Positions 6,258 to 17,320 of a stretch of DNA of 20,702 nt are shown piece by piece (positions within the stretch are counted from its first letter, which is position 1; every line of letters starts with the position of its first letter). The position numbers and the translations under genes are program-made. The notes under the pieces are model-generated. The model was not told where the DNA came from. It worked only from the letters and a program-made list of their open reading frames with translations, and ran no database searches. The DNA comes from a virus. The stretch lies in IMG/VR virus record IMGVR_UViG_3300039191_000386, positions 1 to 20,702 of that record; one strand, written 5' to 3'.

Positions 6258-7091
6258 TTAGGCTTTTTTTTTTAAAGCTTCAATTAAAGCTTGTGCTTCA
6301 TTTTCAGATAATGAATCAACTAAATCACTTAATTTAGATTCGCTCTCTTCAATTGTAATAGCTCTAGAAATTTTAAGGTTTCTATTTGTAAGATATCCAT
6401 CTTCCTTAATCGTTTCTTTTTTAGTTGTTGGCTCAATACCTTCAACCATATTATCGATTAATCTTTCATTCTCAGAAAGTTCAACATCTTCTTTCATGAT
6501 TTCAGTATCATGACCTTGCTCACCAGCTTTGTGTTTACCAGTATCTTCTTTACTGTTATCACCTGGCATCTTTTTAGCATCCTCATCAAATTCACCATCT
6601 AAGTTATCACCAGATGTATCATTATCAGTTTTTGTACCCTTTCCGTCATTTTCTTCGACTTCTTCAACAACCTCTTCTTCAACGAATCCAAAACCACCAG
6701 CAGATATTGCGTTTTCAGTTAAATTGTCATTTTCAAATACATTAACCTTTTCACCACCATAAGTTTCATTAAGGCTTAAAAATTTAAGATTAAGTTTTTT
6801 GATTGCTTTTGCATATGTAGGGTGTGCTTCTTTCTTTTTGTTTTGTAGACCACCAATGTAATTGAAGTCTTCAACAACAAGATTAGATTTCTTACTAGAA
6901 CCTACTGTTTTAATGTAATACTCATGGTTTTCTCTTACAATACCATAAACTTTACCGTCTGGACCAATTTTAGTTAACTCAATAACAGAGTTAGTCGTAG
7001 ATTTGTTAACGGATTCACCCATTAAGTGCTTCATACGATTAATCTTCTCATTTCCTTTTAACCCAGTTGGCTTTACTATATTCTTTCTCAT
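6258..7091 (-). CDS. 277-aa structural-type protein, first gene of the head string
   Basis: The named function is unknown; it is probably a head-assembly or structural protein. A Lys-rich start is followed at about 35-115 by a compact domain with YGIVRENHEYYIKTV, FNYIGGLQNKKKEAHPTYAK and LNLKFLSLNE. I recall this combination from structural proteins of other large Bacteroidota myophages. An acidic low-complexity middle (about 140-205; Glu, Asp, Gly) and a helical end rich in Ser, Glu and Leu follow. The gene ends in TTA AAA AAA AAA GCC TAA, an A10 run 20 bases before the next gene. A TATTTAT motif lies 17 bases upstream of the ATG, so the five-gene string 7091-2723 probably starts here. Confidence 0.8.
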   Translation of the reverse strand: MRKNIVKPTGLKGNEKINRMKHLMGESVNKSTTNSVIELTKIGPDGKVYGIVRENHEYYIKTVGSSKKSNLVVEDFNYIGGLQNKKKEAHPTYAKAIKKLNLKFLSLNETYGGEKVNVFENDNLTENAISAGGFGFVEEEVVEEVEENDGKGTKTDNDTSGDNLDGEFDEDAKKMPGDNSKEDTGKHKAGEQGHDTEIMKEDVELSENERLIDNMVEGIEPTTKKETIKEDGYLTNRNLKISRAITIEESESKLSDLVDSLSENEAQALIEALKKKA

Positions 7092-9388: not shown

Positions 9389-11977
9389 ATGAAGAAAGAT
9401 ATTATTCCAAAAGTGAAGGCGATTATGAAATTAGCCTTCAAGGAAGCAAAAGCATACGAAGATATAAAATTAAGGCCAGAACACATTGCAATATCAATTG
9501 TAATGGATGATGATAACAAAGCTGTTAGTACATTAGATGAATTAGGTGTTGATTTAAGTGAGTTGTATGATTTATTAAGTGATACATTAAAGGATGTCGA
9601 CGTATCAGCTAGGATGGGTAACCCTAGAACAAAAGTACCACCTAGTGATTTAACTGCAATGATATTCACTGATGTTGATAACCAATGTGATAATTTAGGT
9701 GATTCAGCTATTAATACATCACATTTATTATTAGCTATTTTAAATCATAACACACCAACAACCCAAATACTAGAAAAAATGGGTGTTGATTATAATAATT
9801 TTAAAACAAAATTAATTGAAGTAGATATGGATGATAACAGTGAGAATAGACAAGAGGAAGACTTGAATAAAATAAAAAAAATGAAAAAGAATCTAGACGA
9901 ATACAAAAATGCTTTAGACGATTTTGATGATTCTGCCACTAGTAGTGGTAGAGATGAATCATCTGGCAGAAAGAAAACTGAAAAATCTAAAACACCTGTT
10001 TTGGATAATTTCTGTACTGATATTAGTAAGGCTGCTGAAAAGCAAACTATTGACCCAGTTGTTGGTAGGGGTAATGAAATTCAAAGGGTTTCAACAATAC
10101 TATCCAGAAGGAAAAAGAATAACCCAGTATTGATTGGTGAGCCAGGTGTTGGTAAAACATCAATCGTCGAAGGATTAGCCCAACTGATTATAGAAAAAAA
10201 GGCACCAAGAGTGTTACTAGATAAAAAGATATACTCATTGGATTTAGCATCAATGGTTGCTGGTACTAAGTATCGTGGACAATTTGAGGAAAGAATGAAA
10301 GCAGTTCTAGAAGAATTAAAAAACAATCCTAATATTATCTTGTTTATCGATGAGTTACAGACAATTGTCGGTGCTGGTAATGCAAGTGGTTCACTAGATG
10401 CATCAAATATATTTAAACCAGCATTAGCTAGAGGTGAAATTCAAGTAATTGGTGCAACTACTTTGGATGAGTATCGTGAGAATATTGAAACTGACGGTGC
10501 ATTAACTAGAAGGTTCCAAGAGGTTATCGTTGATGAACCAACTTTATCAGAAACAAAAATAATCCTTGAGAATATTAAGGAGAAATATGAGGAATATCAT
10601 AAGGTTCAATATACTGATGATGCAATTGATGAGTGTGTTAAGATGGCTGATAGATATATCTCGGAAAGAGCTATGCCAGATAAAGCTATTGATATTCTTG
10701 ATGAGGCTGGTGCAATCACAAACGTTGATGTTGAAGTTCCATCAGAAATCCAGAAATTAGAAGAAAGGTGGGCAGAAATTAAGAAGGAGAAGTTATCCGT
10801 AGTTCAAAAACAACAATACGAGAAAGCTGCCAAACTTAGAGATGATGAAAGAAAAGTTCAAGAAAAACTAGATAAAGCTAAAGAAATTTGGATGAATAGT
10901 TTAGATAAAGAGAGAACTATTGTCGATGTTGATTTGGTATCTGAGGTTGTATCTAATATGACTGGTATTCCATTGAGTAAAGTTAGTGGTCAAGAGACTG
11001 TTAAGCTTGCTAAAATGGAAAATACATTGAAGGGTCAAGTAATTGGTCAAGATGAAGCGGTTGTTAAGGTATCTAAATCAATCAAAAGAAATAGACTTGG
11101 TATTAGAAGAAGAACAAAACCAATTGGTTCATTTATTTTCTTAGGACCTACAGGTGTTGGTAAAACACACCTTGCTAAATTATTAGCTGAATATGTTTTC
11201 GGTGATAAGGATGCACTTGTAAGGGTTGATATGTCTGAATATATGGAGAAATTCTCTGTATCAAGGTTAGTTGGGGCACCTCCAGGTTACGTTGGTTATG
11301 AAGAAGGTGGTAAATTAACTGAGGCAATCAGAAGAAAACCATACTCTGTAGTATTATTCGATGAGATTGAGAAAGCTCACGAAGATGTATTTAACTTAAT
11401 GCTACAACTATTGGATGAAGGTCAGTTGACAGATTCATTAGGGAGAAAAGTGGATTTCAAAAACACTTTAGTAATCCTAACATCCAATGTTGGTGTAACT
11501 GAATTAAATAGCTTCGGTAAGAGTGTTGGTTTCGAAACTGGTGATACAGTAGCTAAAGAAGAAGAAAGAGCTAGAACAATTATAGAGAAAGCACTTAAAA
11601 AGAAATTTAAGCCAGAGTTCCTTAATAGAATTGATGATACAATCATCTTTAACTCACTTAAAGAAGTTGATATTCAAGAAATTATTAAGCTTGAGTTAGA
11701 ATCAGTTAAGGAAAACCTTTTAGAATTGGGTTATACTCTTGAGTTAGATAAGAAAGCAATGGATTATATAGCTGAGCAAGGTTATGAGCCAGAATACGGT
11801 GCTAGACCGCTTAATAGAGCTATCCAGAGATATGTTGAGGACCCAATCTCGGAAGAGGTGATTAATGGAAACATTAAAGAGGGTGATACAATCAAAGTAT
11901 CTTATGATGCTAAGAATGACAAAATGGTTGTTAAAACTAAAAAAGTTAGAAAATCTTCTAATAAGTCTAAAGACTAA
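9389..11977 (+). CDS. clpC: ClpC-like AAA+ unfoldase
   Basis: A Hsp100 unfoldase that feeds proteins to the ClpP protease. It has 862 residues, the full length of ClpC. Order: Clp_N double repeat (about 1-145), a charged linker (about 146-195), AAA-1 with Walker A GEPGVGKTS at 250-258 and sensor region FIDELQTIVGAG, a UVR-like middle region (about 472-493, QYEKAAKLRDDERKVQEKL) that marks ClpC rather than ClpA, AAA-2 with Walker A GPTGVGKTH at 586-594 and Walker B FDEIEKAHEDV, then a C-terminal D2-small domain. The ClpP-docking loop is kept as VGF at 713-715. It has its own host-type promoter and terminator. Phage-borne ClpC probably works with host ClpP to redirect proteolysis, which is inference. 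Confidence 0.95.
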   Translation: MKKDIIPKVKAIMKLAFKEAKAYEDIKLRPEHIAISIVMDDDNKAVSTLDELGVDLSELYDLLSDTLKDVDVSARMGNPRTKVPPSDLTAMIFTDVDNQCDNLGDSAINTSHLLLAILNHNTPTTQILEKMGVDYNNFKTKLIEVDMDDNSENRQEEDLNKIKKMKKNLDEYKNALDDFDDSATSSGRDESSGRKKTEKSKTPVLDNFCTDISKAAEKQTIDPVVGRGNEIQRVSTILSRRKKNNPVLIGEPGVGKTSIVEGLAQLIIEKKAPRVLLDKKIYSLDLASMVAGTKYRGQFEERMKAVLEELKNNPNIILFIDELQTIVGAGNASGSLDASNIFKPALARGEIQVIGATTLDEYRENIETDGALTRRFQEVIVDEPTLSETKIILENIKEKYEEYHKVQYTDDAIDECVKMADRYISERAMPDKAIDILDEAGAITNVDVEVPSEIQKLEERWAEIKKEKLSVVQKQQYEKAAKLRDDERKVQEKLDKAKEIWMNSLDKERTIVDVDLVSEVVSNMTGIPLSKVSGQETVKLAKMENTLKGQVIGQDEAVVKVSKSIKRNRLGIRRRTKPIGSFIFLGPTGVGKTHLAKLLAEYVFGDKDALVRVDMSEYMEKFSVSRLVGAPPGYVGYEEGGKLTEAIRRKPYSVVLFDEIEKAHEDVFNLMLQLLDEGQLTDSLGRKVDFKNTLVILTSNVGVTELNSFGKSVGFETGDTVAKEEERARTIIEKALKKKFKPEFLNRIDDTIIFNSLKEVDIQEIIKLELESVKENLLELGYTLELDKKAMDYIAEQGYEPEYGARPLNRAIQRYVEDPISEEVINGNIKEGDTIKVSYDAKNDKMVVKTKKVRKSSNKSKD

Positions 11978-12062: not shown

Positions 12063-12689
12063 ATGGCTAGTAAAGATAAAAAGAAAGATGATATTAAAGG
12101 TGGTCTTGCGGATAATATGAGTGTAACTGATATTGCCGATAAGCATGATGTACCAGTTAAAGATATTACGAAAGAACTTAATATTGGTATTAAGGTTGAG
12201 ATGGAACACGTTGATGATGAAAAATTATCAAAGGAAATTGCTTTAGACCATTTATTCGAAATCCCAGATTATTATTCTAGATTGGAAGATATGGAATCAG
12301 AAGCTAAAAAAGAACTTAAACTTGAACAAAAGGGTTTAATTAAAAAGTTACTTAGAGAAGCAATTAATTTATCTGTTAGTGATGAAACCAAAGATTCTAA
12401 AACATTTGATATATACTATAATGGTAGAAAAGCTGGTCACATAACTTGTGGACCAGCTTCTGCAAATGTATTCGATGAACATACTCACGAAATCCTAGAT
12501 TTAGAGCTTAAAGAAGATTATGAAAGTTTGCATGTTGCTAATCAAGCAGTAAATGCATTGTGGGAAGCTCACCCAGATGTTAATATGTATGTAGTCTCAT
12601 TACCAGAACAGAGTAAACCGTTTTGGGAAAAGTTAAATTTCCATAGATTGAATGATAACTATCACATGTTAACGAGAGGCCACGGCTAA
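12063..12689 (+). CDS. DUF5661 protein with C-terminal GNAT-like domain
   Basis: The 208-residue protein has three parts. Residues about 12-42 form a helix-turn-helix-like stretch (LADNMSVTDIADKHDVPVKD). Residues about 43-80 match DUF5661: GIKVEMEHVDDEKLSKEIAL, then DHLFEIPDYYSRLEDME. Residues about 115-208 resemble a small GNAT acetyltransferase fold (FDIYYNGRKAGHI, a helix LHVANQAVNALWE, and FWEKLNFHRL near the end, like the GNAT 'Y/F-x-K-x-G/N-F' strand), though no clear acetyl-CoA P-loop (QxxGxG) is visible, so catalysis is doubtful. DUF5661 is common in phages and often sits beside acetyltransferase-like domains; its role is not known. The last 21 bases overlap the transglycosylase gene on the other strand. 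Confidence 0.8.
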   Translation: MASKDKKKDDIKGGLADNMSVTDIADKHDVPVKDITKELNIGIKVEMEHVDDEKLSKEIALDHLFEIPDYYSRLEDMESEAKKELKLEQKGLIKKLLREAINLSVSDETKDSKTFDIYYNGRKAGHITCGPASANVFDEHTHEILDLELKEDYESLHVANQAVNALWEAHPDVNMYVVSLPEQSKPFWEKLNFHRLNDNYHMLTRGHG

Positions 12690-13453: not shown

Positions 13454-13484
13454 CAAAGATACGGATAATAAATTAATTATCCAA
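13454..13484 (-). promoter_or_regulatory. Bacteroidota-type promoter for the transglycosylase
   Basis: On the minus strand TTG (13482-13484), 20 bases, then TATCTTTG (13454-13461), giving a 20-base leader. The -33 part overlaps the last codons of the acetyltransferase ORF. The first 15 bases, TTGGATAATTAATTT, are identical to those of the promoter at 19806-19836. Confidence 0.75.
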
Positions 13485-13901
13485 ATCTTCATTACCCATG
13501 TACTCATGAGAGAAACAAATCCTCTTATTATCTGCGTAATGGTTATTATATAAATTTTTATGTGTTACATCCTTACGTAATTTCCTATTTTTAGATGTTG
13601 GTCGCCACAGTGGTGATGTTTCCCGATAATAACCCATTCTTGGATGAGCTGTTCTTGAGAAATATCTTAAACCTTGGTCAAGATGAATTTCGGCCATAGC
13701 ATCGGAGAATCTAACACCAATACCCATACCTTGGAAATCTGGTAATACAACCGTTCTATGTCCACGCCATGCATTCTTTAGATTACCGTTAGGCATTGCC
13801 ATACTTGCACCGAATGCAACCATTTGACCATCCCAAAACCCAACATAACATCTTGTGGCATTGTGTAAATCGTCTCTTAAATAGTGATGGTCTTTAAACA
13901 T
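13473..13901 (-). CDS. GNAT acetyltransferase half of an ABC-ATPase/GNAT fusion (-1 frame)
   Basis: The frame has a GNAT acetyl-CoA site, RTVVLPDFQGMGIGVRFSDA (QxxGxG-type motif A), and HHYLRDD...ATRCYVGFWDG upstream, which I recall from the acetyltransferase part of COG2401 'ABC-type ATPase fused to acetyltransferase' proteins. The ATG at 13899-13901 would give only 142 residues and cut the domain's usual start. In the same frame, upstream of the ATG, the reading continues as IRPDINLEIYPANRDIWS up to the T9 run inside the ATPase ORF. So the natural product is likely a -1 frameshift extension of the ATPase, 364 residues in all. Internal initiation at 13901 is possible but no ribosome site is visible. 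The biological role is unknown; the substrate could be RNA or protein. Confidence 0.85.
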   Translation of the reverse strand: MFKDHHYLRDDLHNATRCYVGFWDGQMVAFGASMAMPNGNLKNAWRGHRTVVLPDFQGMGIGVRFSDAMAEIHLDQGLRYFSRTAHPRMGYYRETSPLWRPTSKNRKLRKDVTHKNLYNNHYADNKRICFSHEYMGNEDLDN

Positions 13902-14566
13902 TGACCAGATATCGCGATTTGCTGGATATATTTCGAGATTGATATCTGGTCGGATAAAAAAAAACCGTTATAGACTTCTCCATTGTTAGTGTTAATGACC
14001 CAATCTGGTTCTAACCAGTCAATAACATCTTCGTGACAAGTAGCGATAACGACTCGTTTGATTCCGTTGTTCTTTATATATTTAGATAAGGCAACAGATG
14101 CAGCCTTAGCTACATTCCTATCAACAACTGATGTAAATTCATCAATTACCGCTCCGTCCCTTATCTTTCTTGCTAAATCAGCTCTGAATTTTTCCCCATT
14201 AGATAAAACATGATGTGGCTTATACCAACTAGGTATCGTATTAAGCCCTACAGCACCTAATTTATTAATTGCCTCATCTGGAGCATCAAAATGTGATACT
14301 ATTGCTTTATTTGGGTCCCATATTGGATATATCTCTTCCCCAAACTCATTAAGTAAAGTTGATTTACCAGAGCCACTAGCTCCGTATATAACACCGATAT
14401 GAAAATCTTCTGGTAGGTTCTTAGGTAAATCCCAAGGATAAAATTCTGATACACCATTAAATGTACAATCGAAAGCTTTTTCACTAGCTTCAATATAATC
14501 ATCCTTCTTTACAGATGAGGTTAATGGTATTTCTTTTTTGGATAGTTTCTCTATGATTTTTTCCAT
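13877..14566 (-). CDS. ABC-type ATPase, N-terminal half of an ABC-ATPase/GNAT fusion
   Basis: A soluble ABC ATPase without membrane segments. Walker A is GASGSGKST (62-70), the signature is LSNGE (121-125), Walker B is AVIDEF (139-144), a D-loop SVVD follows, and the H-loop is His178 in ATCHED. In the zero frame it ends after 229 residues; the last 25 residues (SDQISISKYIQQIAIS...) do not look like domain sequence. The T9 run just before that tail carries the heptamer U UUU UUA in the correct phase for a -1 shift into the GNAT frame. COG2401 proteins carry the same two domains in one chain, so I read this as one gene with two products. A TATATTTG box lies 4 bases before the ATG, so the mRNA is probably leaderless. 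Confidence 0.88.
   Translation of the reverse strand: MEKIIEKLSKKEIPLTSSVKKDDYIEASEKAFDCTFNGVSEFYPWDLPKNLPEDFHIGVIYGASGSGKSTLLNEFGEEIYPIWDPNKAIVSHFDAPDEAINKLGAVGLNTIPSWYKPHHVLSNGEKFRADLARKIRDGAVIDEFTSVVDRNVAKAASVALSKYIKNNGIKRVVIATCHEDVIDWLEPDWVINTNNGEVYNGFFLSDQISISKYIQQIAISGQCLKTITI
13903..13964 (-). promoter_or_regulatory. Candidate -1 frameshift signal: U UUU UUA slippery site and 11-bp stem-loop
   Basis: On the minus strand a run of nine T (13956-13964) ends in A (13955). In the zero frame the codons are GGT TTT TTT TTA, so the last seven bases form U UUU UUA, the classic -1 slippery heptamer. Three bases later GACCAGATATC (13941-13951) pairs perfectly with GATATCTGGTC (13903-13913) around a 27-base loop. 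A -1 shift gives a next codon ATC and joins the ATPase and GNAT frames. Transcriptional slippage on T9 to T10 would give the same result. The spacer of 3 bases is shorter than usual (5-9), unless the lowest pairs open. Confidence 0.65.
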
Positions 14567-15868: not shown

Positions 15869-17320
15869 CTAATTGTCTTTATCAGTTAGTTCCACTTTTG
15901 GTAAAAGTTTCTGCAATTTTTTAAAGTTTTCCTCTCCTATATCCTTCTTTCTGACTGAAATTCTATGAAGCATCCCACCATTTGTTCTATCTAGTTGGGT
16001 AATCTCATCAGGAATATCAGTAATCTCATTATCCAGAAGGTTAATAAACTCTAATTTCTTACACTGCCCTATCTCTTTAGGTAGTGACGTTATTGAATTC
16101 TCTGGTATAGAAAGTATGCTTAGCTTCTTTAACGAACCTATTGAGCTTGTTAGCTCTGTCATACCTATATTTCCTAACATCAAATACTCCACGTTTTCAA
16201 ATTTCTTTAAGCTTGGTATTTTAGGGATTTCTCTACCCTCAAATCTTATAGCTGGTGTGTTAACATCCAACATATCAAATAGAATATCACTAAAACCAAA
16301 TTCAATCAAATAATCGATATACATATTTTTCTTTACTGAGCCAGTATAAGCTTTTGCCATAGGTTTAAGTTCCTCATAGAAAAAGTTAGCCAGTGCATCA
16401 CTCTTAGATATAACGTCAGCATATATTGCTCGGTTTCTACCGTTACTTCTATCTCTTATTTGTTTACTCTCAAAGTGAATCTGATACATAACCTCATTTG
16501 GTAATGAAGCTTCATCATATTCACCTTCTAAGAATTTATTGTCTATAATTATATATATCTTAGAATTATCAGAAATCGGTGTTTTATAATTTGTATAATT
16601 AGAAAACATTCCATTTCCTCGCTTAGCTGTACACCAACCAGCAAATTTATCGAACAATACATTAGCATCCCTAGTTAAAGGTATAAATAATGTATATTTT
16701 CTATCCTTAACTGGCATATGTGCTTGCCCAGAATCTACAAATCTTTTCATCGCTCTCTCCAATTCAGATGGTTCCTTTTCAATGAATGGGTCAACCGCAT
16801 CAAACAATTGTGATAAACTATCATATTGGTTAATGTTAGTCGGGTCCTTAAGATTCTTAATAGCATAGTTAGTTTTAGATAACTCCATGAATAAATTCTT
16901 TCTTTTGTTACCATCAAACAACTCAAGGTATTCATTAGCTAAAGGTAAATCCTCAGCACCAAACCTTATTGCATCATCAATCCTATTAGTCTTTAATAAT
17001 TTTGAAAATACATTAAGCATCCATTGTAAGTATATCTTATTAGGTGTTGGGTCTGCATCAATCATATCCGCGAATATTGATTCGTGAATCATAGTTTTAG
17101 TTGTTACAAAACCTTTTTCCTTATTTTTAACTACACTATAGGTAATCGCAATATTCCTTCTATCCGATACACCACTCATTTCATCATATTCTTCCGAATC
17201 GATTCTACTTACGGTATATCCTTTAGTTTCAAGATTCTCACAGATGTCATCAATTTCATCATCCATGTAAACTTTAAACTGGTTTGCTAAGAATTCTATA
17301 CGTTTATCAATATTAGCCAT
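15869..17320 (-). CDS. 483-aa protein with GWCTA domain and C-terminal leucine-rich repeats
   Basis: The function is unknown. The N-terminal about 345 residues have a pattern I recall from many phage proteins: a helical region with YLQWML, NQYDSLSQLFDAV, then a beta-rich part with YTLFIPLTRDANVLFDKFAG leading to WCTAKRGNGMFSNYTN and SKIYIIID. The Trp-Cys-Thr core is the recurrent point. The last 120 residues hold about three leucine-rich repeats (LEYLMLGNI-like units: NVEYLMLGNIGMTEL, KLSILSIPENSITSLP, KLEFINLLDNEITDIP), which usually mediate protein binding. It is transcribed alone from a host-type promoter. Possible roles are host-protein binding or takeover; this is inference. Confidence 0.8.
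   Translation of the reverse strand: MANIDKRIEFLANQFKVYMDDEIDDICENLETKGYTVSRIDSEEYDEMSGVSDRRNIAITYSVVKNKEKGFVTTKTMIHESIFADMIDADPTPNKIYLQWMLNVFSKLLKTNRIDDAIRFGAEDLPLANEYLELFDGNKRKNLFMELSKTNYAIKNLKDPTNINQYDSLSQLFDAVDPFIEKEPSELERAMKRFVDSGQAHMPVKDRKYTLFIPLTRDANVLFDKFAGWCTAKRGNGMFSNYTNYKTPISDNSKIYIIIDNKFLEGEYDEASLPNEVMYQIHFESKQIRDRSNGRNRAIYADVISKSDALANFFYEELKPMAKAYTGSVKKNMYIDYLIEFGFSDILFDMLDVNTPAIRFEGREIPKIPSLKKFENVEYLMLGNIGMTELTSSIGSLKKLSILSIPENSITSLPKEIGQCKKLEFINLLDNEITDIPDEITQLDRTNGGMLHRISVRKKDIGEENFKKLQKLLPKVELTDKDN

Follow-up and report, generated by a model that had tools for sequence, protein, structure and literature searches.

The window analysed here, the whole 20,702-nucleotide stretch of viral DNA in IMG/VR record IMGVR_UViG_3300039191_000386, carries on its minus strand two overlapping reading frames, an ABC ATPase and a GNAT domain, and translation of both ORFs confirms the −1 relation between them that was described in the initial annotation. 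The ATPase frame contains a Walker A motif (GASGSGKS), a signature (LSNGE), a Walker B motif (AVIDEFTS) and a His loop (CH), the GNAT frame matches PF00583, and a phrog_11143 profile match, with ABC and GNAT acyl-CoA motifs, spans both halves of the gene. In the GNAT frame a TAA is followed directly by CGG TTT TTT TTT ATC CGA CCA; the zero frame at the junction reads GGT TTT TTT TTA TCC, from which a −1 shift leads into ATC CGA CCA, and in translation such a shift within the T9 run joins both frames into a 364-aa fusion. As had also been proposed, the GNAT frame extends 5′ of its ATG to the T9 run, and no ATG, GTG or TTG is found in it 5′ of position 13901. The features of the locus are the following.

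13877–14566, minus strand: ABC ATPase ORF, zero frame, 229 aa, the presumed default product
13473–13967, minus strand: GNAT frame, −1 relative to the ATPase, opening just 5′ of the T run and continuing to its stop
13956–13964, minus strand: putative T9 slip tract, T9 in 42 of 45 distinct run-bearing junctions
13958–13964, minus strand: heptamer U_UUU_UUU, in phase, common to all run-bearing sisters
13955–13961, minus strand: second in-phase heptamer, U_UUU_UUA, in the window and two sisters only
13941–13951, minus strand: 5′ arm of the stem, GACCAGATATC, 11 bp, 6 nt past U_UUU_UUU
13903–13913, minus strand: 3′ arm of the stem, GATATCTGGTC, pairing perfectly with the 5′ arm across a 27-nt loop
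13899–13901, minus strand: internal ATG of the GNAT frame, dispensable, as it is ATC in sister L012
13877–13957, minus strand: zero-frame tail past the slip site, its TAA end overlapping the GNAT-frame HHYL motif

A search of viral contigs returned relatives with the same split at 67–81% identity, and of about 180 loci among the matches listed, 147 had a frame relation of 0 between the two halves and 32 one of −1, the single +1 locus being decayed. Extra junctions were collected with a pattern scan biased to runs of at least eight T, and among the 45 distinct run-bearing junctions the run is T9 in 42, T8 in one (L008) and T10 in two. All 41 of the T8/T9 junctions scoreable in both halves stand in the −1 relation and both T10 sisters are in frame, while a protein-based search free of the run bias yielded a clade of 19 T8/T9 members, two T10 members and one run-less sister (L096) that is also −1. 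Many of the loci were taken from assembled metagenomes, and the set includes some near copies and close relatives. Within the overlap, the BLOSUM62 score of replaced residues averages +0.13 in the −1 frame, compared with −0.69 in the zero frame; judged by these replacements, conservative in the former and not in the latter, the overlap up to the run evolves as GNAT protein. The sister junctions and the conservation of the overlap thus point to a frame relation under selection, as programmed −1 frameshifting demands.

The split could in principle reflect an assembly or sequencing error in the homopolymer, or a recent pseudogene, given that the sequence comes from a metagenome fragment and that the tract is a homopolymer; yet dozens of independent, divergent contigs are all −1, with both halves intact and conserved. 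Because the independent sisters are always −1, assembly error, which the initial annotation had named as its main alternative, is refuted in substance, and we regard this explanation as extremely improbable. The GNAT half might also be translated separately from the ATG at 13901 by coupling or reinitiation, an arrangement compatible with the position of that codon about 20 nt 5′ of the zero-frame stop. However, the corresponding codon is GTG in L086 and ATC in L012, the −1 frame is conserved as protein 5′ of the ATG up to the run, and in the model of a fused relative the predicted first GNAT strand (E211–216) lies 5′ of the ATG position. Separate translation is accordingly very unlikely, and we reject an internal start at 13901 on the evidence of L012, which lacks that ATG.

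At the run, U_UUU_UUU provides an in-phase heptamer of the X_XXY_YYZ form used in programmed −1 frameshifting and ends 6 nt 5′ of the stem. The slip had originally been assigned to U_UUU_UUA, which ends 3 nt 5′ of the stem; that heptamer is found only in the window and two sisters, the codon at this position being mostly UUG in the sisters and UCA in L008, and the common site is instead U_UUU_UUU. Since A/T runs of at least nine are not rare in the AT-rich window, which has three, the presence of T9 alone would be weak proof, and it is the conservation of T9 that constitutes the evidence. The run in the window also attains the nine or more A or T residues expected for transcriptional slippage, a length of which L008 and L096 fall short.

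Downstream of the run, the perfect 11-bp stem with its 27-base loop is borne out by folding: its minimum free energy is −15.9 kcal/mol, with z −4.06 and 0 of 200 shuffles equally stable. A search of Rfam gave no convincing match. The stem in the window lies within the approximately 5–9 nt downstream at which a stimulatory structure is expected for −1 frameshifting, and most sisters have no stem. An uninterrupted in-register helix of at least 10 bp occurs in 2 of 44 junctions (the window and L008), close to the 2.2% obtained when arms are swapped between sisters. Measured against dinucleotide shuffles, strong stems are present in three of the 44 junctions, namely the T8 sister L008 (z −5.2), the T9 window (z −4.2) and the run-less L096 (z −3.8), where the stem is long but interrupted; the spacer is 6 nt in all three, and the median z over all junctions is −0.07. 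Only three in-register pairs are kept in nearly all sisters, CCA/TGG, which encode a near-invariant Pro and an invariant Trp. With no more than CCA/TGG retained and arm-swapped helices about as frequent, the stem is ruled out as a conserved element of the signal. Alignment of relatives, which the initial annotation had suggested as a check, shows the run and the −1 phase to be kept (T9 in 42 of 45) and the stem not to be. It appears rather to be a lineage-specific stimulator, probably most important where the run is weak, as the three cases suggest.

The in-frame relatives, from phages and bacteria alike, carry a signal of a different kind. An in-phase xGG RGG NNN CTT is present in 89 of 125 distinct in-frame interdomain linkers among the matches listed. 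A null in which synonymous codons were drawn per ORF, run 500 times and ignoring codon-pair bias, gave 1.1 on average and never more than 5; elsewhere in the same ORFs the motif occurs nowhere in 48,406 codons. In a held-out set, fetched later and not used in defining the motif, it is found in 53 of 67 linkers among the matches listed (null 0.6). The linker amino acids vary (RG, RR, WR, WG, GR) and it is the Shine-Dalgarno (SD)-like bases and CTT that are conserved. The linker of L039 reads AGG GGG TAT CTT CGG, and the E. coli prfB site is AGG GGG UAU CUU UGA (PMC8710568). The codon that follows CTT in the relatives is CGG, TGG, CAN, AGG or others, in place of the UGA stop that occupies the A site in RF2. 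Many of the held-out exceptions at CTT keep the SD-like bases with a changed slip codon (GTT, CCC, CAA and others), and the Bacteroidota members have lost the SD-like part and kept CTT, mostly followed by CGG.

The frame that such a signal would open is itself maintained. After a +1 slip on CTT, none of 88 linkers among the matches listed meets an early stop, that is, one before HHYL (null mean 23), and in 72 of the 88 the +1 frame stops exactly at HHYL (null mean 27, maximum 38). Members without the strict motif show 0 early stops in 36 (null 15), all seven of the Bacteroidota members tested stop at HHYL, and in the held-out set, where early stops are likewise absent, 67 of 67 do so (null 34, maximum 44); in the −1 control frame, early stops occur at or above the null rate. 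With no stop in the +1 frame before HHYL, slippage would yield an ATPase-only form. Its end point is also that of the zero-frame tail in the window, and with the shared HHYL end the short product would end alike whether made by default, as in the window, or by slippage. The RF2-type motif itself (SD-like bases, 3 nt, in-phase CUU) is absent from the window and the T9 clade. The linker of L306 (Vibrio phage vB_VmeM-32) reads TAT CTT AGG CGA with no SD-like sequence; its CUU AGG C is the heptamer known from yeast Ty1.

Further signals occur elsewhere in the family. In Lactococcus P335, Streptococcus and related contigs, here called Firmicute-type, the halves stand in the −1 relation at U_UUU (C_CCC once), followed after a spacer of mostly about 6 nt by a stem whose z lies under −2 in 16 of 17 cases and with covariation in the form of three pairs changed on both sides; an Oenococcus member has no stem. 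In a separate clade the tract is an in-frame A10, immediately followed in the −1 frame by TAG, and the corresponding tracts of its sisters are A9, A11 and A12; one Bacteroidota genome has an in-phase AAA AAA AAG with a −1 GNAT. When a tree is built on the ATPase part, members with T9 or T10 make up one starred group, and a second unites the A10 with the Firmicute-type members, both nested among the rows with the RF2-like signal; as the tree is a quick one, the number of signal changes is only indicative. Judged from linkers and frames, slippage between ATPase and GNAT would be a trait of the family whose signal has changed repeatedly. The single sequence behind the initial annotation could not reveal that slippage at this linker would extend across the family with differing signals.

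For the window, we propose with high confidence one gene with one start, from which two proteins would be made by slippage at T9, a derived version of the family trait. Most decoding would stay in the zero frame and give the 229-aa ABC ATPase with its short tail, and a fraction would slip −1 at T9 into the GNAT frame and give the 364-aa ATPase-GNAT. The frames and their conservation uphold this part of the initial annotation, the two products being predicted from them. We favour ribosomal −1 slippage at U_UUU_UUU, which the stem 6 nt downstream would aid, because the stems of the window, L008 and L096 are strong and suitably spaced and because ribosomal signals are present elsewhere in the family. 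A serious rival, absent from the initial annotation, is transcriptional slippage, in which RNA polymerase would add one U at T9 in some mRNAs, translation of U10 would give the fusion and the stem would be irrelevant. That the run is held at nine and not at the heptamer's seven, that the T10 sisters are in frame, that most T9 sisters lack a stem and that the −1 frame of the A10 clade meets a TAG immediately past the tract, with A9, A11 and A12 among the sisters, all speak for the polymerase, and slippage on runs of nine A/T and in T. thermophilus dnaX has been described (PMC5009743). Yet the run-less L096 and the T8 sister L008 are both −1 with strong stems at ribosome-type spacing, a downstream hairpin that is not yet transcribed cannot affect the polymerase, and the Firmicute-type relatives have no long run. 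On the sequence evidence we take ribosomal slippage to be the likelier and transcriptional slippage to be possible, if somewhat doubtful, as the main route, and both may act.

A heritable switch is a further candidate, in which the tract would mutate between T9 (off, ATPase only) and T10 (on, fusion). Such phase variation would draw on the ease with which homopolymers mutate, on the existence of T10 sisters and on the range from A9 to A12 in the A-run clade; it is at odds with a run of exactly T9 in 42 of 45 distinct run-bearing junctions, with L008 and L096, whose tracts are altered by substitution with the off frame kept, and with the maintained +1 frame of the in-frame relatives, which it does not predict. 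We consider it very unlikely. Returning to slippage, the linker signal would keep both forms in production across the family, and in most relatives the default would be reversed, the fusion being read in frame and RF2-like +1 slippage giving the short form. In the T10 plain fusions, the short form may be dispensable or made by reverse slip.

The family occurs in phages and seven bacterial phyla, with matches including Tenacibaculum phage pT24 and Aeromonas QAX98348.1, and is sparse in the genomes sampled (Pseudomonadota 2 of 399, Bacteroidota 3 of 396). Aligned with 36 fused relatives, the T10 sister L024 yields a confident two-domain model (pLDDT 90.3), in which an ABC nucleotide-binding domain is joined to a GNAT fold, and the slip site would fall in the linker of the L024 model, at about residues 201–210. 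A sequence search of solved structures found no specific relative, a fold search returned generic ABC and GNAT chains, with solved structures matching the halves separately, and PADLOC gave weak P-loop matches only. The window phage is T4-like, with Flavobacterium phage immuto as its nearest named terminase relative (31% identity), and one sister contig spans 353 kb, two grounds on which a Bacteroidota jumbo phage is the probable identification.

The upstream neighbours of the window gene are a 69-aa ORF without a match and an RNaseH_like protein, neither of them ParB-like. ParB neighbours, common and not universal, are seen in MismyG, Pmp13, Jace, Axumite and LE3, and in many phages a ParB-like gene lies just 5′ of the ABC-GNAT gene with an overlap of 4 to 22 nt (L308 842–1390, L310 1–606, L312 854–1393, L020 845–1408, L017 875–1396). 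A PurN-like formyltransferase gene lies directly 3′ of it in a PAO1 phage, a Porphyromonas phage and a Bacteroidota contig (L305 3514–4131, L309 2538–3011 and L323 from about 2629, the last read by eye from the translation), a possible clue to the modification chemistry. Pseudomonas phage nickie encodes a related ABC ATPase without a GNAT match (L315 1884–2522), with two ParB-like genes 5′ and small ORFs 3′. Elsewhere in the window lie a complete ClpA/ClpB-type AAA+ ATPase of 862 aa (9389–11977, plus strand; Pfam AAA_2, ClpB_D2-small, Clp_N), a DUF5661 joined to a weak GNAT match, possibly a second acetyltransferase (12063–12689, plus strand), a 483-aa protein with C-terminal leucine-rich repeats (15869–17320, minus strand), and a T10 tract (6264–6273), which is A10 when read along the coding strand, at the extreme end of the ORF at 6258–7091.

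The accessible text of PMC7824862 describes a GNAT-ABC ATPase system of jumbo phages that belongs to the same protein family as the window gene and, citing earlier work, is predicted to add an acyl group to a DNA base. By analogy with the γ and τ products of dnaX, slippage could serve to balance ATPase subunits that carry the enzyme domain against those that do not, and since the family is predicted in that text to acylate phage DNA bases, this ratio would tune a DNA-modifying complex. What the analysis shows directly is sequence conservation, frames, signals and predicted folds; which products arise and in what ratio, how slippage occurs at T9 and what it serves are inferred from these.

Three known systems invite comparison. 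As in the prfB +1 frameshift motif (PMC12421855, PMC8710568), relatives have an SD-like AGGGGG or GGAGG, a 3-nt spacer and CUU in the same phase, L039 being identical to E. coli prfB up to CUU; unlike prfB, they have a sense codon and not UGA in the A site, and their zero frame encodes the long product with the shift leading to the short one, while the window lacks the motif. Like dnaX of E. coli and T. thermophilus, the gene would give two products with a common ATPase part, A-run slippage would be shared, in the A10 clade with a stop encountered at once in the new frame, and reversed arrangements are known there (PMC5009743); however, the ATPases are unrelated, the C-terminal part of ABC-GNAT is an acyltransferase-type enzyme, and the type of signal varies within the family. 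The −1 sites of insertion sequences and phages resemble the window in its U_UUU_UUU, 6-nt spacer and stem, and the Firmicute-type clade in its U_UUU, spacer of about 6 nt and covarying stem, but ABC-GNAT is neither a transposase nor a tail chaperone, and the window stem is absent in most sisters.

The accessible literature on the jumbo-phage system reports no recoding, and the main text of the GeneTack and PRFect papers does not name the ABC-GNAT gene. Literature searches that covered few subscription papers found no published report of ABC-GNAT slippage, which is weak evidence of novelty, no paper on COG2401 and no report of an RF2-type +1 signal in an enzyme gene. To our knowledge, that signal is known in bacteria chiefly from prfB. 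In this family it would have escaped notice, since the fusion is read intact in the zero frame and no disrupted ORF betrays it.

We think it fairly probable that the family is a dual-product one: the ATPase-GNAT would require as its partner an ATPase-only subunit whose alternative-frame tail is maintained, and the two-product output would have been preserved while its signals were exchanged several times. On this reading, which we hold with the same degree of confidence, the exchanged signals would comprise an RF2-like +1 site outside prfB, U_UUU with a stem, T9/T10 and A9–A12. Bacteroidota ribosomes make little use of SD sequences, and the family would offer a natural experiment on the replacement of one recoding signal by another, for example in that phylum. 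One of the two forms of this predicted DNA-modification enzyme is probably missing from existing annotations, and any biochemical reconstitution would need that form too, if the two forms are real.
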